A program made the translations under genes and the position numbers. This document shows positions 2,410-16,210 of a stretch of 36,671 nucleotides of DNA, one piece after another. The stretch lies in assembly GCA_020847425.1 (NCBI GenBank), contig JADLCC010000245.1, positions 1 through 36,671 on the forward strand, read 5' to 3'. This stretch comes from Saprospiraceae bacterium. Lineage in GTDB: Bacteria; Bacteroidota; Bacteroidia; Chitinophagales; Saprospiraceae. Numbering within the stretch: position 1 is the first letter of the stretch; the number at the start of each line of letters is the position of its first letter. The notes under the pieces were generated by a model. The model was given only the letters and a program-made list of their open reading frames with translations. It ran no database searches and was not told the DNA's origin.

Positions 2410-2991
2410 ATGCATTTTTTCAGGGCAGGCAAAAGTAGTTTCGCTGATGAGGATTTTCTTTTGAATGAAATTCAAAAAGGAGACTCCAAAGCGATCCTGT
2501 TTTTGCAGGATAAAGCGTCCGGATTTACCAAAACTTTACTGGAACAATATAAACTACCGGAGCACTTGAAAAGCGAAGTGCTGAACGATGCTTGTATTAT
2601 CGTGATCAAAAAAGTCAGAGAGCCCGGATTTGCTCTTCTTTCAGCCAAACTGTCGACGTACTTCATCGAAATTGTAAAAAATGTGGTGCTGAACAAATCC
2701 CGTGGAAGACAGTTTGCCGGCAATGAATCCCTGGAAAACCAGCACCATTTATCCGACCATTCGGTAGAGGAGTATTACCTGCGAAAAGAAAATATTGAGT
2801 TGATTAACAGGCTTTTAAATGATATTGCTTTGCCTTGTTCCGCTATCATTCGCCTGAAATACCTGGATGGATACGCAGATGATGAAGTGGTGCAACAACA
2901 ACTGGTATCGTATTCCACCGTCGAGTCGCTGCGGGTAAAACGGAGCGACTGCATGAAAAAACTCAAGGATATGGCTAAAAAAATGTTGTAA
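2410..2991 (+). CDS. ECF-like RNA polymerase sigma factor
   Basis: A 193-residue sigma-70 family protein of the small two-domain (ECF) kind. Residues about 15-100 resemble region 2, ending in the amphipathic helix STYFIEIVKNVVLNKSRGR, which fits the -10 melting and recognition helix. Residues about 125-190 resemble region 4: IIRLKYLDGYADDEV, then a helix-turn-helix-like stretch ending in VKRSDCMKKLKDM. It would direct RNA polymerase to a dedicated promoter set in the cytoplasm. The stop TAA is followed directly by an ATG (TAAATG) that opens a 25-codon frame, then an anti-sigma-like gene and a TPR-CHAT protease gene, all in the same direction. The subfamily assignment is by eye. Confidence 0.8.
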   Translation: MHFFRAGKSSFADEDFLLNEIQKGDSKAILFLQDKASGFTKTLLEQYKLPEHLKSEVLNDACIIVIKKVREPGFALLSAKLSTYFIEIVKNVVLNKSRGRQFAGNESLENQHHLSDHSVEEYYLRKENIELINRLLNDIALPCSAIIRLKYLDGYADDEVVQQQLVSYSTVESLRVKRSDCMKKLKDMAKKML

Positions 2992-3069
2992 ATGAAGGTC
3001 GACGCCGGAAACATAAAAAACAAATTCCCATTAATGTTTTTCATTCTACTTACACTTACTGCTGCATAA
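2992..3069 (+). CDS. possible 25-residue hydrophobic micropeptide between sigma and anti-sigma genes
   Basis: A 26-codon open frame fills the gap between the sigma factor and the membrane anti-sigma. Its ATG directly follows the sigma stop (TAAATG), and its TAA ends two bases before the next ATG (TAACAATG). The product would start MKVDAGNIKNKF and end in a hydrophobic stretch PLMFFILLTLTAA, so it would look like a tiny membrane peptide or a leader. Tight coupling on both sides is the main argument for translation. It could also be a chance frame in a spacer. No homologue is known to me. Confidence 0.4.
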   Translation: MKVDAGNIKNKFPLMFFILLTLTAA

Positions 3070-3071
3070 CA

Positions 3072-3986
3072 ATGGAAAATTATCTGTTAGATATTGAAGC
3101 ATATCTGGATGGAAGCATGACGGATGTCGAACGCCGTGCATTTGAGGAGAAGTTACAAACCAACGCACAACTGAAGGAAGAACTAAAAGAATTCCAGGCT
3201 TTGCGGACGGATCTGGCCTATCATTTCGCTACAAAAGATGTAGAAGAGGCCCTGAAATGGCGTGGTGTGTACGAATCAAAAAAACGAGTTCGAACCTGGA
3301 TCTTCATCTGCTTACTGGTGGTAACACTGGTGAGCCTCTTTTTTGTATGGAACAACCTGCAGCAAACAAAAACATCCGAGGCGCCGGAAAATCAGTCCGG
3401 TGATATTCCTTCCAGCCAAGTTCCTGTAAAGTCGGAAAATGAAAACCTGAAAAAAGATACGGATAAAGATCTTGAAAAGGTGCAGCCCCCGCCGACTGCT
3501 CCGCAGAAAAGCCGACCTATTGCCGGTGATCTGAAACGAGCAGGCGAAACCACTGGCGATCTGTACCGTGATTTGCCCAAAGAGCCCGTTTCTGAAGCAT
3601 ATCGACAGTTTTTTGAAACAAGCATGCAGTCTTATGCCGTTGCCGTTCGCCCACAAGGCATCTGGACGCAGGCAGTGCAGGAACTTAATAACCACCGCCC
3701 GGCAAAGGCATTCCAGATACTGAAAAGCCTCCCTCCCGCCGATACTAAAAATGATACAACCTTGTATTTGCAGGCTGTTGCTGTCTTACAAATGCAACGT
3801 CCCGCTGCTGCTGAAGATTTGTTGTATCCATTGATTACAGAAAAAAAATGGCAAACAGAGGGGCATTACCTGCTGATTTGGGTTTATTTATTACAAGGCA
3901 ATACAGAATTGGCAAAGTCTTCGTTAAAATTGCTGCCCGATGCTTATCGTGACAAAAAAGCAATCGTTCTGTTTTTAGATAAATAA
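3072..3986 (+). CDS. single-pass anti-sigma-like protein with periplasmic TPR-like region
   Basis: A 304-residue membrane protein. Residues 1-60 resemble the cytoplasmic anti-sigma helices common in Bacteroidota (IEAYLDGSMTDVERRAFEE, then a Leu/Lys/Glu-rich helix), without a zinc-binding HxxxCxxC motif. One membrane helix lies at about 75-93 (TWIFICLLVVTLVSLFFVW), preceded by a basic stretch that keeps the N-terminus inside. Residues 98-165 are a Pro/Lys/Glu/Ser-rich, probably disordered linker. Residues about 195-292 form helix pairs that look like TPRs (AKAFQILKSLPPAD, LQAVAVLQMQRPAAAEDLL, HYLLIWVYLLQGNTELAKSSL). The place between a sigma gene and a TPR-CHAT protease gene supports a sigma-sequestering role. 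Binding to sigma is inferred, and the family is not certain. Confidence 0.7.
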   Translation: MENYLLDIEAYLDGSMTDVERRAFEEKLQTNAQLKEELKEFQALRTDLAYHFATKDVEEALKWRGVYESKKRVRTWIFICLLVVTLVSLFFVWNNLQQTKTSEAPENQSGDIPSSQVPVKSENENLKKDTDKDLEKVQPPPTAPQKSRPIAGDLKRAGETTGDLYRDLPKEPVSEAYRQFFETSMQSYAVAVRPQGIWTQAVQELNNHRPAKAFQILKSLPPADTKNDTTLYLQAVAVLQMQRPAAAEDLLYPLITEKKWQTEGHYLLIWVYLLQGNTELAKSSLKLLPDAYRDKKAIVLFLDK

Positions 3987-4011
3987 TTCTCACTAATTCT
4001 AGCATTCAAGT

Positions 4012-7000
4012 ATGCGTTATGCCATTTGTCTGTGGGCAGCCTGCCTGCTTGGTAACAACTTTGCCATAGGGCAAACGTTATCAGACCGCTATTCCAAAAC
4101 CTTCGACTCGCTAAATATTGCAGCCAACTTTTCTGCCGCTTTCCAGGTAGCAACAGATTGGGACATGGCGGCGAAAGAACTGCATGGAGACAATAGTTTA
4201 GAAAAAGCGGAGACACTGGGAAAGCTTGCGACGGCAAAACGAAATCTTGGCGCATTAGATGAAGCGGATTCTCTTTTACATCGGGCGATTGGTATTGTCG
4301 AATCATTGCCTGCGACGAATACGGCCGTCCATGCAGATTTGTTAGCCGGCCTTTCCCGGGTCAGGCAAAACATGGGCAAAAATGAAGAAGCGGTACCTTA
4401 TATCCGTCAGTCGCTTGCTATCCGCAAAGAAATTTTTGGAGAAACAGATCGGCGTACCGTTGCCTCTCAAAGCGCATTGGCGGCTGCTTTGCTCAGGGTG
4501 TCTGCCACGGAGGAGGCGGAACAGATTTTGAAAAGCACTATACTCATTTGCGAGCAAAAGCATGCTACGGAAACGTTTGAGTATGCCAATGTACTACAGA
4601 ACTATGCAAAACTGCTCAGTTCGCTCGGACGGTTTAACCGCGCCTGGTCCATTTTCCGCGAATGCCTCGTACTTCGGAAAAAAATGGCAGGAGATCAATC
4701 TTTTGAATATTGGAGTACGCTATTCAGTTATTGCTCTTCCCTGATCGCAGGTGGTAATTTTGATGACCTGACCCCATTACTGGAGCAAGAAAAAAATTTG
4801 AATGCAAAATTGTTCGGTGAAAAAAAGTCGACCAATTACCTTTCTTCTATTCAATTGCGCGGTGCGGCTTTAATGGCTATGCGGCTTTATGATGAAGCGA
4901 TTGTGAGTTTTGAAGAAGCCAAGCAACTGGTAGTTGAAATGTCGAAAAAGAATTCCCCTTTTTACTCCAATTTTTGCTATAATATAGGACTCGCTTATGA
5001 TGCCAAAAATCAATTTGCCCGTGCGGATAGTGCATACCTGGAGGCCCTTCAGATAGAGCGCGCCATATCGGGTACGCAATCGAGCAATTACCTGATTTAC
5101 CTGCTCGGACGTGCAAATATGCTGGCTCGTTGGGATAAAACCATGGAAAGTGCTGCCTTACTGGAGGAAGTAACGCCCTATTTCATGAACAACAGGGAGC
5201 ACATTTATTACTATTATTATTTGCAGGCCAAAGCAGATTTAGCGTTAGGGCAAAACGATATTAAAGGTGGTATAGCCATTTGCGATTCCGTTTTGCAAAC
5301 TGTTCCCGAAAAATTCGGCCCTTATTATGACCTGATGTCCACATTTTTCGAGAAAAAAATGGTAGCGCTGTTCGATCATGAATTCCCGGCCGAAGGTGTT
5401 CTGGTGCTGGATGATTTTATTCGGGTAATAGAATACCAGTTCTTTTCAAAATATGCCCTTTTGACGGACGAAGAGCGATTCAATGACTTTAAAGGTTATA
5501 CTTTCGGGATTCACCTGCTGGCCAATGCTGCCTTTTCGCACCCTGAAATTGCGACAGAAGGGCGCTTGTTGAATATGCAATTGTTCGCTAAAAACATGCT
5601 GGAATCGACGGCCCGAAAAATATTAACCTATATCCAGAATGAAGATAATCCCACATTAATGGATGATTATAACAATTGGGTTGATGTATACGAACAGTTG
5701 TCCGATGCTTACCAAAATGCCCCGAAAGAAGGCTCCGAGGAAAGCAATGCGCTCAAAAATCTTGAAAAGGAAAATGCAGCGCTCGAGAAAAAACTTTCTG
5801 CACATGGTATTCCTATGATCAGGAAGACCCCAAACGTGGAATGGACAGATATCAGGGATGCGCTGGTGGAAGGTGAATGTGCTATAGATGTTTTGCGTTT
5901 TCAACTTCGGGAGGATGGGTGGTTTCGTGATACTATACTTTACGCCTTTTCTATTATCAAACCCGGTGCCACGCATCCCGAACTTGTTTTCCTGGAAAAC
6001 GGCAATGAACTGGAATCTTTTGTAGCCGGACAATTCCAGCGTGAAATCACGCGAAAAAAAGACCTCTCTCCAATTCTTTATGAAAAATTATGGGCGCCGG
6101 TGGCGGCACATCTGGATGGCGTCTCCACGCTGTACTTCTCTCCGGATGGTATTTTTCATAAATTAAACCTGAATACGCTCCGAAAACCGGATGGGGCGTA
6201 CCTGTTGGATCAATTATCCATTATCCAGGTGACAAACCTTCGTTTTATCACAGAACGTAGCGCCGTTTCTTCCGGGCTTGAGCCTGGATTTGCCGCCCTT
6301 TTTGGTAACCCGGCCTTTACAAGTGAAATGAAAGGAACTGCTTCGTCGGACAATACTGCGTCCCCTTCCCTTACTTACCGCGACCTGACAACAGAAGCGG
6401 GCGGCGATCTGAAACTCATGCCCTTGCCAGGCAGTGAGCGCGAAGTGAAAAATATTGCGCAGAAACTGGCCGGGAAAAAGTGGGAAACCCAGGTTTTTGC
6501 CGGAGAAGCCGCCAGCGAGGATACCCTCAAGCGGTTAAAAAGCCCCAAAGTGCTGCACATCGCCACCCACGGTTATTTTTTAAATTCGGAGAAAAAGACA
6601 GATGCCACCGGATTTGCAAGCAACTGGGTCGGTAAAAATCCGGCGCTTCGATCCATGTTGTTTTTCGCAGGCGCCGAAGATGCCATTGCCGGGAAACAAA
6701 CCAGGCGCAACGATGGCATTCTTACTGCATTTGAAGCCGCAGTACTGCGCCTCGATGGCACTGAACTGGTGGTCCTTTCGGCCTGCAATACAGGGCTGGG
6801 GAAAATCCAGAACGGCGAAGGCGTGTACGGGCTGCAACGCGCTTTCCGCATCGCCGGCGCTAAATCATTGATCATGTCGCTCTGGGAAGTAGAAGATGCC
6901 GCAACCGCATTGCTGATGACTACTTTTTATGAGAACTGGACGACTGGGATGTCCAAAACCGAGGCATTCCGAAAAGCTCAAACGGCCCTGAAAGCGAAAT

Positions 7001-7047
7001 ATCCGCAGCCGTTTTATTGGGGCAGTTTTATCCTGGTAAACGGGTGA
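4012..7047 (+). CDS. exported TPR-CHAT (caspase-like) protease
   Basis: A 1011-residue protein with three parts. Residues 1-20 are a signal peptide (MRYAICLWAACLLGNNFAIG), so the protein is probably periplasmic. About 30-430 is a helical TPR array (repeats such as AETLGKLATAKRNLGALDEADSLL). About 640-1011 is a CHAT domain, the clan CD caspase/separase-like fold. The catalytic pair is intact: His853 in HIATHG and Cys925 in LSACNTG, followed by the usual GVYGLQRAF, GAKSLIMSLWEV and PFYWGSFILVNG blocks. TPR-CHAT proteins are activated when the TPR part senses a partner and then cut a target. The gene lies 25 bases after the membrane anti-sigma gene, so that protein is the obvious candidate substrate. 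Type III-E CRISPR TPR-CHAT acts on a sigma-linked target, but in the cytoplasm; here no CRISPR genes are present. Confidence 0.85.
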   Translation: MRYAICLWAACLLGNNFAIGQTLSDRYSKTFDSLNIAANFSAAFQVATDWDMAAKELHGDNSLEKAETLGKLATAKRNLGALDEADSLLHRAIGIVESLPATNTAVHADLLAGLSRVRQNMGKNEEAVPYIRQSLAIRKEIFGETDRRTVASQSALAAALLRVSATEEAEQILKSTILICEQKHATETFEYANVLQNYAKLLSSLGRFNRAWSIFRECLVLRKKMAGDQSFEYWSTLFSYCSSLIAGGNFDDLTPLLEQEKNLNAKLFGEKKSTNYLSSIQLRGAALMAMRLYDEAIVSFEEAKQLVVEMSKKNSPFYSNFCYNIGLAYDAKNQFARADSAYLEALQIERAISGTQSSNYLIYLLGRANMLARWDKTMESAALLEEVTPYFMNNREHIYYYYYLQAKADLALGQNDIKGGIAICDSVLQTVPEKFGPYYDLMSTFFEKKMVALFDHEFPAEGVLVLDDFIRVIEYQFFSKYALLTDEERFNDFKGYTFGIHLLANAAFSHPEIATEGRLLNMQLFAKNMLESTARKILTYIQNEDNPTLMDDYNNWVDVYEQLSDAYQNAPKEGSEESNALKNLEKENAALEKKLSAHGIPMIRKTPNVEWTDIRDALVEGECAIDVLRFQLREDGWFRDTILYAFSIIKPGATHPELVFLENGNELESFVAGQFQREITRKKDLSPILYEKLWAPVAAHLDGVSTLYFSPDGIFHKLNLNTLRKPDGAYLLDQLSIIQVTNLRFITERSAVSSGLEPGFAALFGNPAFTSEMKGTASSDNTASPSLTYRDLTTEAGGDLKLMPLPGSEREVKNIAQKLAGKKWETQVFAGEAASEDTLKRLKSPKVLHIATHGYFLNSEKKTDATGFASNWVGKNPALRSMLFFAGAEDAIAGKQTRRNDGILTAFEAAVLRLDGTELVVLSACNTGLGKIQNGEGVYGLQRAFRIAGAKSLIMSLWEVEDAATALLMTTFYENWTTGMSKTEAFRKAQTALKAKYPQPFYWGSFILVNG

Positions 7048-7067: not shown

Positions 7068-7133
7068 CACTTATGTTTTTGAATTGACCTACACTTATCT
7101 GAAAAGCAAGTTCATAATTCAAAAACCTAAGTG
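7068..7133 (+). promoter_or_regulatory. long hairpin in the leader of the lipoprotein gene
   Basis: CACTTATGTTTTTGAATT (7068-7085) pairs with AATTCAAAAACCTAAGTG (7116-7133), 17 of 18 positions matching, around a 30-base loop. The right arm ends four bases before the ATG at 7138. A second CACTTAT in the loop (7092-7098) could compete for the same partner. In mRNA this could hide the translation start or slow the polymerase between the regulatory genes and the structural genes. There is no long T-run after the stem, so it is not a standard terminator. Confidence 0.5.
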
Positions 7134-7137
7134 TTCC

Positions 7138-8316
7138 ATGAAACTATTCAAATGTATTTCACATGCCCTTTTGCTCACCACTTTGCTCCTGCAATGGTCC
7201 TGCAAACCTGACCCCAGTGAAGAACCTGTAGATGCGGCTATTGTCCTCGACAGCAAAGTTTACTCCGAAAGCCCCCAACATTGGACCAATCACCATGCGA
7301 ATGGCGTCGATTATATCATCAAAGGGCGCCTATTGTTCCAGATCAATGCTACGCTCACCATCGACCCGGGTACGGAAATCGTTTTTGAAAACGATGCCAG
7401 TCTGGAAATGAATACTTCTTCGCTTAAAGCAAGAGGAAGTTTGTCCGAACCGATTCTTTTCAGAGGCAGTAACAGTACCAAAGGTTTCTGGAAAGGGATC
7501 GTCCTGTACGGAAAAACAGATCATGAATTGATTTACTGCACCATACAGGATGCCGGCGGCGGTACTTCTACCACTGTTGGTGCAGTGGTGGTCGGCAACG
7601 CGCTCGGAGATGCCGGCTTGTCGCTGGAGCATTGCAGCATTTCAAATAGTTCCTCCAACGGTATTGTGGTCAGCGATGAAAGCACACTGAATGCCTTCAA
7701 CGACAACATCGTTACCAATTGTGATTATGCCGCTTACGTTACCGCAAATTCCCTGGGCCAATTGGCAGGCACCGCAAATACGCTGACCGGAAATATACAC
7801 GACCAAGTAAAAGTAAAAGGTGATCAGGTACGTAAGCCGGGATTATGGCCGTTTCTGCCGGTTGGTTTCCTGTTCAGCGGCGAAACACAGTTGGAGAATG
7901 AAGTGACCATCGAACCGGGCGCTGTACTGCTGTTCGACTCGGGCGCAGAACTGGTTTTGTACCAGAACAACTCGACCTCCTCCAAACTTTTTGCCAATGG
8001 AACACCTGCAAAACCTATTGTTTTTAAAGGCGCAAATACTACGCCGGGGTACTGGAAAGGCGTTCGTGTGGATGCCGGACTAGCCCGATTCACCTATTGC
8101 AATTTCAGCGATGCAGGCAAATCGGGAACCAGCCCTCATACGGGAAATCTGTATATCACCAAAGCCCTGGGCAACGTAGACGTAACCATTCAAAATTGTG
8201 TGGTGAGCAACAGTTCCAATCACGGTATTTGTGTGCGGACGAATACCCTTCCCAGCGTTACACTCAGCAACAACCTGTTTAATGCGATCGCAGGAGATGA
8301 TCAGCACAACTGGTAG
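7138..8316 (+). CDS. beta-helix lipoprotein
   Basis: A 392-residue lipoprotein. The ATG at 7138 gives a lipoprotein signal ending in LLQWSC (Cys22). The mature protein is built of right-handed parallel beta-helix-type repeats and contains an internal duplication. Both halves have the order TIxPGxxxxF, a P-I-x-F-x-G strand (EPILFRGSNSTKGFWKG and KPIVFKGANTTPGYWKG), a YCxxxDAG turn (IYCTIQDAGGG and FTYCNFSDAGKSG), and a terminal CSISNSSSNGI or CVVSNSSNHGI turn. Bacteroidota use such folds as surface-exposed binding or carbohydrate-active proteins; I see no catalytic motif. It lies 90 bases after the CHAT gene and 46 bases before the next gene, in one direction, so it is probably part of the same transcript. 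Confidence 0.75.
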   Translation: MKLFKCISHALLLTTLLLQWSCKPDPSEEPVDAAIVLDSKVYSESPQHWTNHHANGVDYIIKGRLLFQINATLTIDPGTEIVFENDASLEMNTSSLKARGSLSEPILFRGSNSTKGFWKGIVLYGKTDHELIYCTIQDAGGGTSTTVGAVVVGNALGDAGLSLEHCSISNSSSNGIVVSDESTLNAFNDNIVTNCDYAAYVTANSLGQLAGTANTLTGNIHDQVKVKGDQVRKPGLWPFLPVGFLFSGETQLENEVTIEPGAVLLFDSGAELVLYQNNSTSSKLFANGTPAKPIVFKGANTTPGYWKGVRVDAGLARFTYCNFSDAGKSGTSPHTGNLYITKALGNVDVTIQNCVVSNSSNHGICVRTNTLPSVTLSNNLFNAIAGDDQHNW

Positions 8317-8362
8317 TACAGCCTACTAAAACGCTATTTCAAAAACCTATAAACAATTGATT

Positions 8363-8881
8363 ATGAATGTGAAGAAAGCATTTTTCACGCTCTTGGCGCT
8401 GCTATGCCTGAACAGTGGATGGTCCCAGCAAATGGTGGACAATATCTGTATGCAGGTGATCGGCAGCAATGGGCTCAGCGCCGAAAAACTCGGCAAACAT
8501 TACGATGCTACCCTTGGCGAAGTAATGACGGCTACCTTGACTTCAACCGATGCAAGTACTACGGTTACACAAGGGTTCCACCAGCCCGAATGCGCTTTGG
8601 CAATGGTCGGAACAGGTGATGTTGCAGTGGAATGGCAGATAGAGGTTTACCCGAACCCTACACCTTCCTTGCTGTATCTTAAGTATGCGTACACCGACGC
8701 AAATGTTCTGCAAGCCCGTGTATGGAGTATCAACGGTATGCTGCTTTCCGATTGGCAAGATACGCCTTCCCAATCAGCACTTGATTGCAGTACATACCCC
8801 GCCGGACTCTATTTTCTGGAAATTCAAGACCCATCAACAGGTCATAAATCAACCATCAGATTTGTAAAAACAACCCATTAA
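8363..8881 (+). CDS. small T9SS type A sorting-domain protein
   Basis: A 172-residue exported protein. I prefer the ATG at 8363 over the TTG two codons earlier. A signal peptide ([19 protein letters not shown]) is followed by about 70 residues with no known domain. The C-terminal sorting domain contains the PNPTPS motif, a [11 protein letters not shown] segment and a [10 protein letters not shown] block. The gene lies 10 bases before the collagen-like fibre gene. Small T9SS proteins placed just before such fibre proteins may assist or anchor them, but that role is inferred. The 12-mer TTCAAAAACCTA in its leader (8338-8349) is identical to one in the leader of the previous gene (7118-7129). 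Confidence 0.75.
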
Positions 8882-8891
8882 TTCAACTGAT

Positions 8892-11800
8892 ATGAAAAAA
8901 TCATTCTTCTCCATAATAGTGCTGATACTGCTATTATGTACAACATCACTGTTCGCACAGGCTCCACAAGGCTTTAATTATCAATGTATTGTGCGTGATG
9001 CCGCCAATGCGCCTATTTCAAACCAGACTGTCACGCTGCTTTTTTCTCTGCGCGATGGAGATCCAACTGGCCCGGTGGCCTATGCGGAAAGCCATACCGT
9101 CAGTACGAATGATTTTGGCCTGATCAATATCATTGTAGGGCAAGGCACACCTAGCAGCGGTTCATTTAGCGCGGTCGACTGGGCAGATGGCGCCAAATAC
9201 CTTAAGGTGTTTGTCCTGAACGGTGCAGTGGCTACTGAATTGGGCACTTCCCAATTGATGAGTGTTCCTTATGCCTTGTTTTCTGGTAATGGCGGCGGAA
9301 GTGTCGGTCCACAAGGCCCGGTCGGTCCGGCTGGTGCCACGGGTGCCACAGGCCCACAAGGCCCAATTGGCTTGACTGGTCCGGCTGGCGCTACGGGTGC
9401 AACAGGTCCACAAGGTCCGATCGGCTTGACTGGTCCGGCTGGCGCTACGGGCGCCACAGGCCCACAAGGTCCAATTGGCTTGACAGGTCCGGCTGGCGCT
9501 ACGGGTGCAACAGGTCCAGTTGGCCTGACTGGTCCATCTGGCGCAATGGGTGCCACAGGTCCACAAGGTCCAATTGGGCTGACCGGTGCAACGGGCGCGA
9601 CAGGTCCGCAAGGTCCAGTTGGATTGACAGGTCCGGCTGGACCTCAGGGCCCGGCGGGTACTTCAGGATCCTACACTGCGGGTGCAGGTATTTCGATCAG
9701 TGGGTCGAGTGTTATTTCCAATAGCGGCGATACCGATGCGAGTGATGACGTTACGAACTCGAGTGTTGCCGCAGGCGATGTAAGTGGAACATTTTCAACA
9801 CTTTCTGTTGATAAAATAAAAGGTAGAGCGGTGTCCTCTTCCGCTCCTGCCGATCAACAGGTACTTAAATGGAATGCTGCAGCAAGCCGTTGGGAACCAG
9901 CCAATGATGTTGGCGGCGGCAGCGGCGACAACTGGGGAAGCCAGTCCGTACAGACCAATGCATCCCTTTTCGGAAATGGAACATCTGGCAGTCCGGTAGG
10001 GCTGGCGCAGCAAGGCGCCTCTTCCGGCCAGGTACTCAAATGGAACGGTAGCGCCTGGACGCCTGGAAACGATGAGACCGGCGGCGCCGGTGGACCAACG
10101 TATACCGCAGGGGCAGGTATCAGCATTGCCGGAAATATCATTTCCAATACAGGCGATACAGATAATTCGACTACCAACGAGATTCAAACGTTAGCCCTGG
10201 CAGGTAATCAACTGACTATTTCCGGTGCAGGCGGCAATACGGTAAGTCTGCCAACCGGCACTACGTACACTGCCGGAGCGGGTATCAATATTGCAGGCAG
10301 TGTGATTTCCAATGCAGGCGATACAGACGCATCCAATGACCTGACCAATACGTCTGTCGCCAATGGCGATGTTACCGGCGCTTTTAATAATTTACAAATT
10401 GCAGCCAATGCCGTGGGGACTAACGAACTGGCGAACAATGCTGTAACCGGTGCGAAAATCGCTCAGTCGGGCGCAACACCAGGCCAGGTACTGCAATGGA
10501 CTGGCGCTACCTGGGCTCCGGCTACCGCATCTGGCGGCGGCTTGACCCTGCCTTATGACCAGACTGTTAATATTGGAGCCGGTATGGGTGATGTTTTCAG
10601 AATCGAAAACACGGCTGCCGCAACAGCGATAGCCGGTATTTGCAACACAGGAATTGGTGTTTACGGCGGCTCTACCACTGATTATGGCGGATATTTTGAA
10701 TCAAATAGCGGTATCGGTGGCTTTTTCTCCTCTACGGGAGGTCCTGCGCTTGTTACAGATGCCGGGTTTGTTGGCATCGGGGTCACCAATCCACAGTCAA
10801 CCCTGACAGTAAGTAGTACAACCGGATTCAATGATATGGAAGTGAATTATTATGGTTCCGGAGGTGGCGGGATCATCGGTTTTGGTAGCGCCAACGGTAC
10901 GAAAATCGCACCGACAGCGAAGATCAATGCACAACCTCTCGCAGCGCTCAATTTTCAGGGACACAACGGTACGGGATTCAGCACTGGCGCTACTATTTAT
11001 GCCATGACGACTGAAAACTGGAACTCGAACAACCACGGCTCCCGCCTGAATTTTTTGACAACACCCAATGGTGGCGGTATCGGCCAGGACCGGATGACGA
11101 TCGACCACAACGGCAGCATCGGCGTGGCCACCGCACCGGAAGCAAACATTCTTTTTACCGTAGGTAGTAGTTCCACGAACAAACCAGGGGCCATTGCAGG
11201 GCGCCTGAACAGCACCGGAAATGCCATTGAAGCCATCAACTCCGGCGCCGGCACGGGTATTTATGCCGGTTCGCTGAGCGGTTCTGCCGCTTACCTGAGT
11301 TCAACATCAGGGCTTGCGCTCGAAACAGGTTCCGGCAGGGTAGGGATCGGCGCATCATCCGTGGCCAGCGATGTGAAATTTCAAATCAACCACGGTCCTG
11401 CGCCAGGCCTGCTTTCATTTGCCAAAATGCTTAAATTACACAATTCCAATCCTGCTTCCGGCGGCAATTCCGGCATCGAGTTTTCGCAGCAGTCCAACAA
11501 TAGCAAATGGCTGACATCGGCTACTTTCGACCCGACTACTCCTGCAAGTTCGACGTTCAATTTCGTTTATGCACATGGTAATGCAACCACCAGCAGCCCA
11601 TTCCCTCTGACGATCCAGGGCAATGGCGCAGTTGGGATAAACACCACTTCAATTGGTCCTTATCAATTGAAAATCAAGCACTTTGAATTTGGAATGAACC
11701 TCGAAAATGGTCTTGGCGATGACTGGGAAATCGTAACCGCTTCTTCCAGCGGCAACCTTAATCTCTTTTTTAACAATAATTTCAGGGGCAGTTTTAATGC

Positions 11801-12218
11801 TGCCAACGGACTGTACACGAGCAGCGACCGACGCTTAAAATCTGATATAAAGCCGTTTCGTTCCGCATTGGCCGGCATTATGCAACTGAATCCAACAGAG
11901 TATGTGCATATCGATAATATTAAAACGGGTAGACGTACGATCGGATTTATCGCACAGGAACTCAATGAGGTTTTTCCTGAAGTCGTTTCACACGAAGTGC
12001 TGGCGGAGCGCAACCAGGATGTTTATATGGTCAATTATGGCCTGATGAGCGTCATCACAGTTAAGGCGATGCAAGAGCAGCAGGTGCAGATACAATCGCT
12101 TCAAAAAGAGAATACGGCTGTACGCGCAGAGTTAGAGGCCATCCAAAAACAAAACACCGAACTCGAAGCGCGCTTGCAACGCATTGAAGCGGCACTGGGA
12201 AATTCCCCTAAACATTAA
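8892..12218 (+). CDS. collagen-like fibre protein with S74 self-processing chaperone domain
   Basis: A 1108-residue exported fibre protein. It begins with a signal peptide ([19 protein letters not shown]). A beta-rich N-terminal domain of about 110 residues starts [15 protein letters not shown] collagen-like block of about 40 Gly-X-Y triplets lies at about residues 138-256. Several Thr/Gly/Ser-rich stalk repeats follow ([17 protein letters not shown]). The end is a peptidase S74/endosialidase-type intramolecular chaperone from about residue 975: the [10 protein letters not shown] motif, [32 protein letters not shown], and a C-terminal coiled coil. In this family the chaperone drives trimer formation and then cuts itself off before the conserved Ser (here S978). 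The protein is probably a surface or appendage fibre. No T9SS tail is present, so the export route is unclear. Confidence 0.85.
9351..9512 (+). repeat. 54-bp tandem repeat coding for collagen triplets
   Basis: Three 54-base units (9351-9404, 9405-9458, 9459-9512) each code for the 18-residue unit [18 protein letters not shown], with only silent changes between copies. Degenerate partial copies lie on both sides, about 9300-9660. The array can change in length by slippage or recombination and so tune fibre length. Confidence 0.85.
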
Positions 12219-12227
12219 ACCAGAACA

Positions 12228-13502
12228 ATGCAAAGGCTACTTTTTGCATGGGCGATCATTTTTCCTGCACTCCTTTTGTCTTTTCAGGCAAAAGCGGGTG
12301 CAGGAAATGCCCCCTGCGACACTTCCTTTTTTTACGCGTCCGTTTGCCCGGGGCAAACCTTTTTTATCGCCGGAAATATATTCGATTTCCAAAATCCAGA
12401 TGGCGTTGTAGTGCTTCCCGAAGCCAGTTGGGATGGCTCAGATAGCGTGGTAGTGGTTCAACTCAGCCTTGCGCCTCCCGTCACCCACGTGATCGAGGGC
12501 AACTTCTGTCAGAATGAAGCCTTGTATATTAATGGTCAAATTTATGATGCCGGGCATCCATCAGGAACAGAACTGTTGCCGGGTGGCGCAGCAGGCGGAT
12601 GCGACAGCATGATTGTAGTCAACCTCTTTTTTTTATCTCCCGCCCTGAATCACCTGCAACAATCCATCTGTAGCAATGACACCGTCTGGGTGAACAACCA
12701 ACCGTACGATCAGTATTATTACCTCGGAATGGAAACCATAGCCGGTGGGGCCGCCAATGGATGCGACAGCGTGATTTTAGTGGACCTCAGCGTTTTGCCG
12801 GCGCCAACAGATACCTTTTCAATGCGTCTTTGTCCTGGGGAAAAGATAGTTATTATTGGAAGCGAATACAATGAAACGCGCCCGGCTGGCCTCGAAATTT
12901 TACCAGGCGCTGCAGCAAATGGTTGCGATTCATTGGTTTATGTGGAACTAACCTTTTTTGATCCGCCTTCGATACCTGCCTTTTTAGGCCAGGATCAGGC
13001 GGCTAATCTCGGCGATTCTATTTGTATTTCTATTCCTGAGGACATAAATGTTGCGCAAATCAGATGGGCAACAACACTTCCCTGCGCTGATTCGGATTGC
13101 AGATCAGTTTGTTTTCAGGCAGAAAAACGCCAGTCGCTGATTTGTACCATCACTGATGAAAATCAGTGTGTGTTTTCGGACACCGTTCGTATTGAAGTCA
13201 CCAAAAACCGGCCCGTTTACATCCCGAATGTTTTTTCCGTCGAAGCAGCGCCGCCTAATAACCGGTTCAATATTTTTCCTGGTATCAATGGAGCGTTTGC
13301 AAACTGGATGGTGTTGTACGACCGCTGGGGTAGTTTGGTATACAGTGTAAAAGATTTTACTCCTGGTGATGAAAACAAAGGATGGGATGGAAACATTAAT
13401 GGCACAGTGGCGCCGCCGGGCGTGTATGCGTATGCAGTGGAGATCTTGTACCCGGATGGGCTAACGGAAATTTTGAGTGGTACGGTTACTTTAGTTCGCT
13501 AA
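12228..13502 (+). CDS. CHU_C (gliding-motility type) T9SS adhesin-like protein
   Basis: A 424-residue exported protein starting nine bases after the fibre gene. A signal peptide (LLFAWAIIFPALLLSFQAKA) leads to four repeats of about 55 residues. The general form is C-(3-6 residues)-G-x-x-Y or F, a P-x-G-x-x-x-L turn, then GCDS-(3 residues)-V-x-L. The first copy lacks the cysteine of GCDS. A linker ends near residue 320. The last 100 residues are a type B sorting domain of the CHU_C/gliding-motility C-terminal family: YIPNVFS, NRFNIFPG, MVLYDRWGSLVY, GWDGNINGTVAPPGVYAY. This would route it to the surface through the T9SS. It is the last gene of the run, and its 3' end overlaps a minus-strand remnant by 17 bases. 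Confidence 0.8.
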   Translation: MQRLLFAWAIIFPALLLSFQAKAGAGNAPCDTSFFYASVCPGQTFFIAGNIFDFQNPDGVVVLPEASWDGSDSVVVVQLSLAPPVTHVIEGNFCQNEALYINGQIYDAGHPSGTELLPGGAAGGCDSMIVVNLFFLSPALNHLQQSICSNDTVWVNNQPYDQYYYLGMETIAGGAANGCDSVILVDLSVLPAPTDTFSMRLCPGEKIVIIGSEYNETRPAGLEILPGAAANGCDSLVYVELTFFDPPSIPAFLGQDQAANLGDSICISIPEDINVAQIRWATTLPCADSDCRSVCFQAEKRQSLICTITDENQCVFSDTVRIEVTKNRPVYIPNVFSVEAAPPNNRFNIFPGINGAFANWMVLYDRWGSLVYSVKDFTPGDENKGWDGNINGTVAPPGVYAYAVEILYPDGLTEILSGTVTLVR

Positions 13503-13837: not shown

Positions 13838-16210
13838 ATGATGAGAAATCTGTTATTCGTACTGTTTCTTTCCATTCCAACCCTTGCAACAGCACAGGGT
13901 AAAAAAGGTCAGGCGCTGATCGATTCCCTGCAGCAGGCACTGCCCGCACTCAGAGATGACCATTCCAAAGTAAATACCCTCAACCTGTTGAGTTATGAAC
14001 TGAGGCGGTTTAACCCCGACACGGGTTTGTATTATGCGCAACAGGCCATTCAACTGGCGCAGCGAATCGGAGTTGCCAAAGGAGAAGCACAGGCCTACCG
14101 GAACGGAGGGATCAATTATTACCGGCTGTCCGACTATGAACACGCACTTGCATACCACAAAAAGGCGGCAGATGTTTTTGAACGCCTGGGCGATCAGGCC
14201 GGGCAGGCTGCCAACCTGAACAACATCGGGAATGTTTACCTGGCCTTGTCCGATTTTCCAAAAGCACTTGAAAATTACCAAAAAGCGCTGCCTATCAACG
14301 AAGCAATGGGCAATAAACAGGAGATCGCCAATAACCTGAACAATATCGGTAACATATATTTCAATACGTCCGACTATGCGCAGGCGCTGATTTACTACCA
14401 GAAAAACCTGCCGATTTATGAAAGTCTGGGCAATCAAAGCAGCCAGGCACTCACATTAGGCAATATCGGTGCGGTATTTGAACGGTTGTCCGACTACCCC
14501 AAAGCGCTCGGTTTTTATCAAAAAGCGCTGGCGATTTATGAAAACCTCGGTGATCAGGCTGGCCAGGCGGTCAATTTTTTTAACCTGGGGTCCGTTTACG
14601 GCAGCCTTTCAGATTATCAAAAGTGCCTGGAATTTCACCGGAAAGCATTGGCTGTTTGGGAGCGCCTGGGCGATAAATCCGAACAGGCCACCAATTTGAA
14701 CAGCATCGGCAGTTGTTATTTTTTTTTGGGCGACTACCTGAAGGCATTGGAAAACCATCAAAAATCGCTGTTGATATACCAGAGCCTGGACAACAAAGAA
14801 GGACAGGCCGCCAATCTGAGTAATATTGGAATTATTTACGAAAAACTATCCAATTTCCGGCAAGCGCTTGCTTACGCACAACAGGCGCTGGCGATTTATG
14901 AAAACATCGGCGATAAATCCGGCCAGGTCGCCAATCTGAACAACATCGGTAATGTGTATGCGAAAATGGGGGATTACACTTTGGCGACCGAATACCAGCA
15001 TAAAGTGCTGAACATGAGCAAGGATATCAAGGCGCTTGCACTGGAACAAAAAGCCTGGGAATCGCTGAGCAATATTTATGAAAAACAGGGCGATTTTATT
15101 CAATCCTATGCCGCCTACAAACAATTTATCGTGCTGCGCGACAGCATTCAGGGGGAGTCGACCAAAAAACAAATCACCAGAAGGGAACTGCAATATGAAT
15201 TTGACAAAATAGAAACGGAATATCAGTTTCAACAACAACTTACCGAAGCGCAATTGCAAAAACAGGTGCTCATCGCCAACCAGCGCAGCCAGGAATTGCT
15301 GCTCAGCAACAAGGAAAAGGACCTGCAACGCCTCGCCTATCTGAAAGAAAAAGCCGAAAAACAGGAAAAGGAAAAACAACTCAGCCTGTCTGAAAAAGAA
15401 AAAGAACTACAGGCCGCGCAATTGACGACCATGGCGCAGCAGGCTGCTTTGCAGGCCGCGAATATTGAAGCCAAAAATATGCAGCGCAATGTTTCCATTG
15501 CGGGCTCCGCGTTGCTCCTGCTTGCCCTGTTTTTTATCTATCGAAATTTCAGCAATCAAAAAAAGTCCAACCGACTGCTGACCGTAGAAAAACAAAAGTC
15601 GGACAACCTGTTGCTCAATATCCTGCCCGGAGAAGTGGCGGAAGAACTCAAAGAAAAAGGCGCCGCTACAGCCTGCCTGTATGATGAAGTAACTGTTTTG
15701 TTTACCGATTTTGTCAGTTTCACCCAGATCACGGAAAGGCTCAGTCCACACGAACTGGTGAGTGAGATCGACCGTTGTTTCCGGGTATTCGACGCTATTA
15801 TTGAACGACACGGCCTGGAAAAAATAAAAACCATCGGAGATGCCTACCTGGCTGTCTGTGGCTTACCTACGGAAGAGCCCGAGCACGCTTTAAAAGCGGT
15901 GCGCGCCGCCCGCGATATCCGCAACTGGGTGAATGATCCGGCCAATGCCTCCAAATTCAGCATACGCCTTGGGCTGCACTCCGGCCCGGTCGTGGCAGGC
16001 ATTGTAGGCGCTAAAAAATTTGCATATGATATCTGGGGCGACACGGTCAACACGGCCGCCCGGATGGAACAAAACAGCGAAGCAGGCAAAATCAACCTAT
16101 CCGGCGCCACTTTTGCACTCGTGAAAGATGATTTTGCCTGCACGTACCGCGGGAAAATTGAGGCCAAGAACAAGGGCGCGGTGGATATGTATTTTTTGGA
16201 TGGGGATTGA
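13838..16210 (+). CDS. membrane class III adenylate cyclase with periplasmic TPR sensor
   Basis: A 790-residue protein that should make cAMP in the cytoplasm. A signal peptide (LLFVLFLSIPTLATAQ) is followed by about nine 40-residue TPRs (NLNNIGNVYLALSDFPKALE type) up to about residue 440. Next come a Lys/Glu/Gln-rich coiled coil, one membrane helix at about 553-571 (SIAGSALLLLALFFIY), and a guanylate/adenylate cyclase domain at about 595-790. Metal-binding aspartates are D624 (LFTDFVSF) and D668 (KTIGDAYL). The adenine-selecting Lys (in EKIKTIGD) and D731 (YDIWGD) point to ATP, not GTP. The transition-state N738 and R742 (VNTAARM) are present. The topology suggests that the TPR part senses something outside the membrane. 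The gene stands alone. Confidence 0.88.
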   Translation: MMRNLLFVLFLSIPTLATAQGKKGQALIDSLQQALPALRDDHSKVNTLNLLSYELRRFNPDTGLYYAQQAIQLAQRIGVAKGEAQAYRNGGINYYRLSDYEHALAYHKKAADVFERLGDQAGQAANLNNIGNVYLALSDFPKALENYQKALPINEAMGNKQEIANNLNNIGNIYFNTSDYAQALIYYQKNLPIYESLGNQSSQALTLGNIGAVFERLSDYPKALGFYQKALAIYENLGDQAGQAVNFFNLGSVYGSLSDYQKCLEFHRKALAVWERLGDKSEQATNLNSIGSCYFFLGDYLKALENHQKSLLIYQSLDNKEGQAANLSNIGIIYEKLSNFRQALAYAQQALAIYENIGDKSGQVANLNNIGNVYAKMGDYTLATEYQHKVLNMSKDIKALALEQKAWESLSNIYEKQGDFIQSYAAYKQFIVLRDSIQGESTKKQITRRELQYEFDKIETEYQFQQQLTEAQLQKQVLIANQRSQELLLSNKEKDLQRLAYLKEKAEKQEKEKQLSLSEKEKELQAAQLTTMAQQAALQAANIEAKNMQRNVSIAGSALLLLALFFIYRNFSNQKKSNRLLTVEKQKSDNLLLNILPGEVAEELKEKGAATACLYDEVTVLFTDFVSFTQITERLSPHELVSEIDRCFRVFDAIIERHGLEKIKTIGDAYLAVCGLPTEEPEHALKAVRAARDIRNWVNDPANASKFSIRLGLHSGPVVAGIVGAKKFAYDIWGDTVNTAARMEQNSEAGKINLSGATFALVKDDFACTYRGKIEAKNKGAVDMYFLDGD

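Follow-up and report, generated by a model that had tools for sequence, protein, structure and literature searches.

A recurrent module of sigma factor, anti-sigma and exported TPR-CHAT protein that may form a protease-gated circuit in Bacteroidota

What would an exported, caspase-like protease do beside a sigma factor and a membrane-bound anti-sigma? The question is raised by a stretch of 36,671 nucleotides from a Saprospiraceae bacterium (GenBank assembly GCA_020847425.1, contig JADLCC010000245.1, positions 1 to 36,671), here called the window. An earlier note, made from the sequence alone, had described an extracytoplasmic function (ECF)-like sigma factor, a single-pass anti-sigma with a tetratricopeptide-repeat (TPR) end and a signal-peptide TPR-CHAT protease, all in one direction, and had proposed that the protease gates the sigma factor by cutting the anti-sigma. 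The three open reading frames (ORFs) do follow one another on the plus strand:

2410..2991, + strand: divergent ECF-like sigma factor, 193 amino acids (TIGR02937, E = 1.2e-7)
3072..3986, + strand: single-pass membrane anti-sigma-like protein, 304 amino acids (profile matches, hydropathy, AF2 topology)
4012..7047, + strand: exported TPR-CHAT protein, 1011 amino acids, without a C-terminal transmembrane helix (Pfam, hydropathy, structure model)

Judged by its profile match, the first product is a divergent ECF-like sigma, as its 31.6 bits against TIGR02937 lie below the curated cut-off of 42.9; it has paralogues in its own genome, three of which (C25, C120 and C71) adjoin CHAT genes. We find that sigma, anti-sigma and CHAT genes form a real, recurrent module, and that the CHAT protein and the pair very probably work together. 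The best reading, to which we give a probability of roughly 0.55, is a protease-gated sigma circuit with matched compartments, in which the CHAT protein would cut the anti-sigma; it would be the arrangement of the DdvA protein in split form.

The assembly to which the window belongs (5.9 Mb in 628 contigs) has 16 CHAT matches, some at contig ends and some on contigs that overlap. Many of them have next to them a sigma-like gene and, after it, an anti-sigma-like gene; this pair may share the strand of the CHAT or be convergent with or divergent from it. Throughout, a CHAT counts as linked when a six-frame ORF count places a sigma within 3 kb of its ORF, and the comparisons between groups of relatives are restricted to fully flanked CHATs. 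By this count, 10 of the 15 CHAT ORFs of this genome are linked and the five others all lie near a contig end; no more than 4 are fully flanked. The nine other sigma-like CHAT neighbours scanned in this genome all hit TIGR02937, and six exceed its cut-off. An anti-sigma ORF with a transmembrane helix is present in the window and at eight of these sites; none was picked for locus L028. The C-terminal ends of the anti-sigmas are either TPR-type or, judged by eye, beta-type.

For relatives, we drew on 20 genomes with a CHAT, the window's own included. Every CHAT site of the own genome was taken, together with all or most sites of nine further genomes (two of three in G002, five of six in G005, 14 of 16 in G013) and none from G001, G003, G004, G006 and G010. 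A phylum sample of 40 loci, a second set of 40 chosen by similarity to a different CHAT and a set of 20 resembling locus L089 were hand-picked before their neighbours were seen. A named set holds the best 80 of at least 564 CHAT matches and is not a clean outgroup, including as it does Saprospiraceae (L180, L186, L198, L201), Chitinophagaceae (L174) and one Acidobacteriaceae. Loci L066 and L067, which overlap L062 and L058, were left out of the linkage and orientation counts, and L031, L046, L053, L076 and L077 have no CHAT ORF above the profile cut-off and were also left out.

A sigma accompanies 4 of 4 fully flanked CHATs in the own genome, 27 of 38 in the genus, 9 of 12 in other genera of the family, 2 of 2 in family f9 and 3 of 9 in the order families f2 and f5; the family is probably Saprospiraceae, to judge by named hits such as L186 and L198. 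Further out, the counts are 4 of 7 in class family f12, none of 6 in class family f15, none of 14 in other classes and 3 of 54 among the named loci. Pooled, the window's order has 45 of 65 linked and f15, the other classes and the named set together 3 of 74 (Fisher 3e-17, a value that overstates the contrast because the loci are related and not independent). The second set repeats the pattern, with a sigma within 3 kb of 23 of 38 fully flanked CHATs. The chance of such proximity is about 0.08 per CHAT, as estimated from 47 TIGR02937 matches in genome G009, and the counts of 45/65 and 23/38 rule out chance neighbourhood. When neighbouring proteins of the own, genus, order, f12 and f15 loci were clustered by single linkage, the anti-sigma formed the commonest cluster (57 loci), the sigma the second (55) and secreted proteins with features of the type IX secretion system (T9SS) or PKD type the third (40).

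Among 93 linked cases, the sigma gene lies 5′ of the CHAT on the same strand in 18 and 3′ in 8, and the two are divergent in 32 and convergent in 35. Varying orientation rules out a pure operon effect. The three-gene set that the earlier note suggested looking for in other Bacteroidota is there as a neighbourhood, and the exact order seen in the window belongs to a minority (18 of 93). That note had named a CHAT gene not conserved beside the pair as grounds for giving up its proposal; in relatives, we find it kept there. An alignment of four upstream sequences gave nothing usable as a promoter common to the sigma and CHAT genes. Recurrence of the set in so many relatives means that the CHAT protein probably works on the anti-sigma, most likely by cutting it.

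Of the 27 matches of at least 85 bits that a profile of the module sigmas has in four genomes, 18 are within 3 kb of a CHAT; the profile itself contains six of the 18. On a tree of 171 CHATs, in which the named loci are a random part, the linked state changes 32 times, as against a mean of 56.9 and a minimum of 46 in 500 shuffles. CHAT and sigma distances in 46 of 58 modules (12 short pieces were dropped) correlate at r = 0.59, a value reached by none of 2,000 within-genome shuffles (0.10 ± 0.075). One module, L044 (G009:C3), looks decayed, with four in-frame stops in its CHAT and an ORF between sigma and anti-sigma; in L049 (G007:C2) the same module looks open.

The two larger proteins have the following parts:

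3096..3257, + strand: cytoplasmic anti-sigma-like region, residues 9-62 (NF052375 E = 2e-4 and PRK13920 7e-4, both below cut-off)
3294..3350, + strand: transmembrane helix of the anti-sigma, residues 75-93 (hydropathy)
3351..3656, + strand: low-complexity periplasmic linker, about residues 94-195, the proposed cut region (without R-G, R-S or R-N)
3786..3953, + strand: C-terminal TPR region of the anti-sigma, residues 239-294 (PF14559, TPR_19, 25.5 bits against a gathering cut-off of 25)
4012..4071, + strand: signal peptide of the CHAT protein, about residues 1-20, starting MRYAICLWAACLLGNNFAIGQ (by eye and hydropathy, no dedicated predictor)
6076..7038, + strand: CHAT domain, residues 689-1009 (PF12770, E = 8.5e-66; invariant dyad)
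6568..6570, + strand: His853, in ATHG (alignments)
6784..6786, + strand: Cys925, in LSAC (alignments)

The window's CHAT protein exceeds the PF12770 cut-off and also carries TPRs by Pfam. Its His853 and Cys925, which the earlier note had called intact, are both present and invariant in alignments of 14 and of 36 proteins. A single-sequence AF2 model of the anti-sigma has low confidence (pLDDT 56.7) and was read for topology only: it has N-terminal helices, a helix at 74-101, an unstructured stretch at 102-174 and C-terminal helices. The signal-peptide-like start of the CHAT protein agrees with that note's placing of the protease across the membrane, where CHAT and the C-terminal part of the anti-sigma share a compartment.

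The match of compartments extends to other modules. We tabulated 84 modules (sigma cut-off 1e-3; rule based on N-terminal hydrophobicity and transmembrane helices), leaving out L025, L026, L039, L044, L047, L084 and L185 as cut, decayed or wrong ORFs. All 73 exported CHATs adjoin an anti-sigma with a transmembrane helix, the 11 non-exported CHATs adjoin one without a clear helix, and no module is plainly mixed. N-terminal hydrophobicity is at most 1.80 in the non-exported CHATs and at least 1.87 in the exported ones, with the cut set after the values were seen. By the rule, 10 of the 11 non-exported modules have no anti-sigma helix; the anti-sigma of L267 has a borderline stretch (1.61) that contains an arginine, and that of L258 one of 1.44 that comes late, within the C-terminal domain. 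An example of the non-exported type is L089, in which the CHAT lacks a signal peptide and the anti-sigma a transmembrane helix; L087 resembles it, but the start of its CHAT is ambiguous. A search with the L089 CHAT, covering 20 loci, led to nine more such modules (L258, L263, L266, L267, L269, L274, L275, L276 and L277). This matched swap of compartment is a natural experiment that helps to separate cooperation from chance neighbourhood, and it fits direct contact of the CHAT protein with the anti-sigma beyond its cytoplasmic head, as far as predicted topology can tell.

Many CHATs, among them L020, L024 and L092, have a C-terminal membrane helix as well as a signal peptide. This anchor is found in 25 of 56 linked CHATs, in 16 of 28 unlinked ones from the order and f12 and in 2 of 109 unlinked ones elsewhere; it tracks clade, not the pair, and would hold the protease to the inner membrane.

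We propose that the anti-sigma holds the putatively bound sigma at the inner membrane through its short cytoplasmic part and exposes to the periplasm its linker and TPR end. There the TPR array of the exported CHAT protein would serve to sense a signal, and the protein, once active, could act as a site-1 protease that cuts the linker ahead of the TPR end. Ordinary intramembrane and cytosolic proteases would then release the sigma, which might switch on the module and nearby genes for secreted proteins.

Cooperation could also proceed without cutting, if the two TPR arrays bind one another and the CHAT protein, serving as scaffold or allosteric sensor, either holds the anti-sigma or loosens it. 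Both proteins have TPRs, and linkage and compartment match suit binding as well as cutting. Nevertheless, we consider this rather unlikely: the His and Cys retained in 55 of 56 linked CHATs would be needless in a pure scaffold, a beta-type end replaces the TPR in some anti-sigmas, and an unrelated protease occupies the place of the CHAT in L279 and L281. In these two, among six short CHAT-free or distant pairs examined, an exported papain-type Peptidase_C1 protein (1498-2301 in L279, E = 1.3e-10; 1-1092 in L281, E = 3.5e-9) directly follows a CHAT-free pair of sigma and TPR-anti-sigma, so an unrelated protease can take the place of the CHAT. In L282, the pair is followed by an exported TPR protein that is incomplete at the end of the stretch, and no following protease was seen at the other pairs of the six. 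A further C1 protein is encoded close to a CHAT in L070 (16644-17999).

If the linker is cut, a candidate site is an R-G motif. Many linked anti-sigmas have, between the transmembrane helix and the C-terminal domain, an aromatic- and proline-containing stretch followed by arginine and a small residue. Arginine followed by G, S or N within 70 residues of the helix occurs in 45 of 71 linked membrane anti-sigmas (300 shuffles: 27.0 ± 3.8, maximum 37), or in 48 of 74 with L072, L093 and L234 included; L039, L043, L084 and L185 were left out of these counts. R-G is the most enriched linker dipeptide (27 observed, 8.0 shuffled), and alone it is found in 29 of 74 linked and 1 of 12 unlinked anti-sigmas. 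All nine beta-type soluble anti-sigmas of the L089-like set have R-G or R-S, judged by eye to sit shortly ahead of the C-terminal domain; L089 itself has R-A at that position, and L087 has neither R-G nor R-S. The linkers of the window and of L059 share YRDLPKEPV and, later, YR and FFE.

Several findings weigh against the protease-gated circuit or narrow its reach. The R-G motif was spotted by eye and its statistics are post hoc; the window's own linker contains no R-G, R-S or R-N, and the wider motif is also present in 3 of 12 unlinked anti-sigmas (L124 and L116, which are 3.8 and 5.0 kb away from a CHAT, and L282, where the R-N sits in the first TPR). Of the 11 non-exported modules, nine belong to a single family (f54) and two to G013, so few independent changes underlie the compartment match. 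Unlinked CHATs retain the dyad just as well (27 of 28 from the order and f12, 108 of 109 from elsewhere), and its conservation therefore says nothing special about the pair. Among paralogue pairs alone, the correlation of distances is weak (r = 0.23, reached by 122 of 2,000 shuffles). No sigma lies within 3 kb of 20 of the 65 fully flanked CHATs of the order, and one accompanies only 6 of 13 in the L089-like set; in the named set the proportion falls to 3 of 54, which implies that an exported CHAT must have other work too. The CHATs of L138 and L058, 43% identical to that of the window and 97% to each other, have no adjacent sigma pair (the L138 contig extends just 2.1 kb upstream), and the slightly more distant CHAT of L059 (41%) has one. 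Behind the L138 and L058 CHATs follow the same four secreted-protein genes that lie downstream in the window:

7084..13502, + strand: beta-helix lipoprotein, T9SS cargo, collagen-like S74 fibre and CHU_C protein (profile matches)

These genes are possible outputs or operon partners of the module. Given the findings above, surface proteins may be a further or even the chief target of the CHAT protein, and the pair may be a local addition. Large secreted proteins precede the CHAT in L042, L051, L056, L074 and L099, with PKD and DUF7619/DUF7849 domains in L042 and L099 and no Pfam match in L074; of these loci, L056 has a sigma nearby in the six-frame count and the others have none detected within 3 kb.

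Such neighbours suit an arrangement in which the CHAT is an output, that is, an exported protein under control of the sigma that processes or guards surface proteins while the anti-sigma answers another signal. The CHAT and its four-gene secreted operon persist without the pair in L058 and L138, secreted T9SS/PKD-type proteins form the third commonest neighbour cluster, and exported CHATs without a pair are common. We nonetheless think this unlikely, because the pair stays by the CHAT even where the two are divergent or convergent, as in 67 of 93 cases, and the topology of the anti-sigma shifts with that of the CHAT, which would be unexpected if the CHAT were a mere target gene.

Beyond the operon, at 13838-16207, lies a gene whose product combines TPRs with a class III nucleotide cyclase domain and matches Pycsar cyclase models of PADLOC (best 1e-17). 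Together with the precedent of Csx29 and the separase/Csx29 fold described below, it could speak for a circuit of defence or cell death in which the CHAT responds to phage or to an attack on the envelope by activating the sigma, on the pattern of type III-E CRISPR. This seems very improbable to us: none of the 26 window proteins scanned matches a Cas effector in PADLOC-DB, in line with the earlier note's statement that CRISPR parts are absent, and the roughly ten linked CHAT ORFs in a single genome, with their secreted neighbours, suggest control of the envelope or surface. Upstream of the sigma gene, a 2OG-oxygenase-like protein (1392-2018) has a PADLOC match (E = 2.6e-21) to a model labelled CRISPR-associated, which probably reflects the general 2OG domain, and at about 2200-2370 an inverted repeat of some 15-20 bases (AACCCTGAAAGGGTT and its reverse complement) was noted by eye.

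How the protease-gated circuit relates to known systems can be judged in part from the fold of the CHAT protein. A model built from 36 sequences (pLDDT 83.9) was searched against the PDB with Foldseek. The first ten matches include human separase (5e-13), DdvA (8rw5, 3e-11) and 8eey_B (1.1e-10), which we take to be the Csx29 chain of a Csx29-containing entry; whole-chain TM-scores are low (0.2-0.45). The type III-E matches, 8eey_B and 8d9h_E (7.3e-10), have TM-scores of 0.30-0.45. When a profile of the CHAT part was compared with PDB sequences, the best match was DdvA (8rot_B, E = 2.3e-4, residues 885-968 of 991, with ACEGG); a second DdvA stretch, non-significant, shows ATHG, and the type III-E CHAT proteins rank behind (E = 0.016 and up).

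DdvS/DdvA of Myxococcus xanthus (PDB 8rot, 8rw5) resembles the window in uniting a transmembrane anti-sigma, an ECF sigma and a CHAT-like domain, features that we take from the PDB title (transmembrane anti-sigma) and chain name (CHAT domain-containing protein). DdvS is active once DdvA is inactivated (PMC4374960, also the source for the organism). In DdvA the parts form one chain; in the window, anti-sigma and TPR-CHAT protein are separate ORFs tied by gene linkage only, and the anti-sigmas keep a TPR or beta-type end of their own, unlike DdvA. As a natural fusion of parts that are separate here, DdvA supports a working link and lowers the novelty of the module.

In type III-E CRISPR, Csx29 cuts the sigma inhibitor Csx30 (excerpt of PMC10028731). 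That system, Csx29-Csx30-CASP-sigma, likewise combines a TPR-CHAT protease of similar fold, an inhibitor and an ECF sigma. It is cytosolic and triggered by RNA through Cas7-11, whereas the window's CHAT has a signal-peptide-like start and no Cas effector match beside it; the anti-sigma has no match to Csx30 among PDB sequences, by sequence comparison only. CHAT proteins also occur in the genetic context of ECF54 sigmas, a group for which the excerpted text of PMC8999054 describes no anti-sigma and proposes control of the sigma by proteolysis; here an anti-sigma is present. The earlier note knew of no description of such a circuit. This stands for the split module, of which we found no description in the open-licence literature (a body that misses most subscription papers), and falls short in that the DdvA fusion and CHATs near ECF54 sigmas (PMC8999054, in part) were known. 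The pertinent literature consisted of the Csx29 paper, the remark on ECF54 and a CarD paper in which DdvA is mentioned.

The tie of exported Bacteroidota CHATs to sigma/anti-sigma pairs gives these proteases a testable substrate and readout. Tentatively, at somewhat less than even odds, we see a large CRISPR-free family in which TPR-CHAT and anti-sigma share one compartment, across the membrane or in the cytosol, and a papain-type enzyme may replace the protease; the split, fused (DdvA) and CRISPR-captured (Csx29) forms would be variants of an older CHAT-sigma switch. If so, Csx29 and DdvA join a wider class, and CRISPR took over a switch that already existed. A further parallel is RseA with DegS and RseP, DegS being a PDZ serine protease. 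There, under envelope stress, a first protease cuts the membrane anti-sigma, and RseP and ClpXP follow (PMC10028731, in part). The protease of the present module differs: it is a cysteine protease of caspase-like type that carries TPRs and a signal peptide, in many cases also a C-terminal transmembrane helix, and would, if our reading is right, bring caspase-like site-1 proteolysis to signalling across the bacterial inner membrane.

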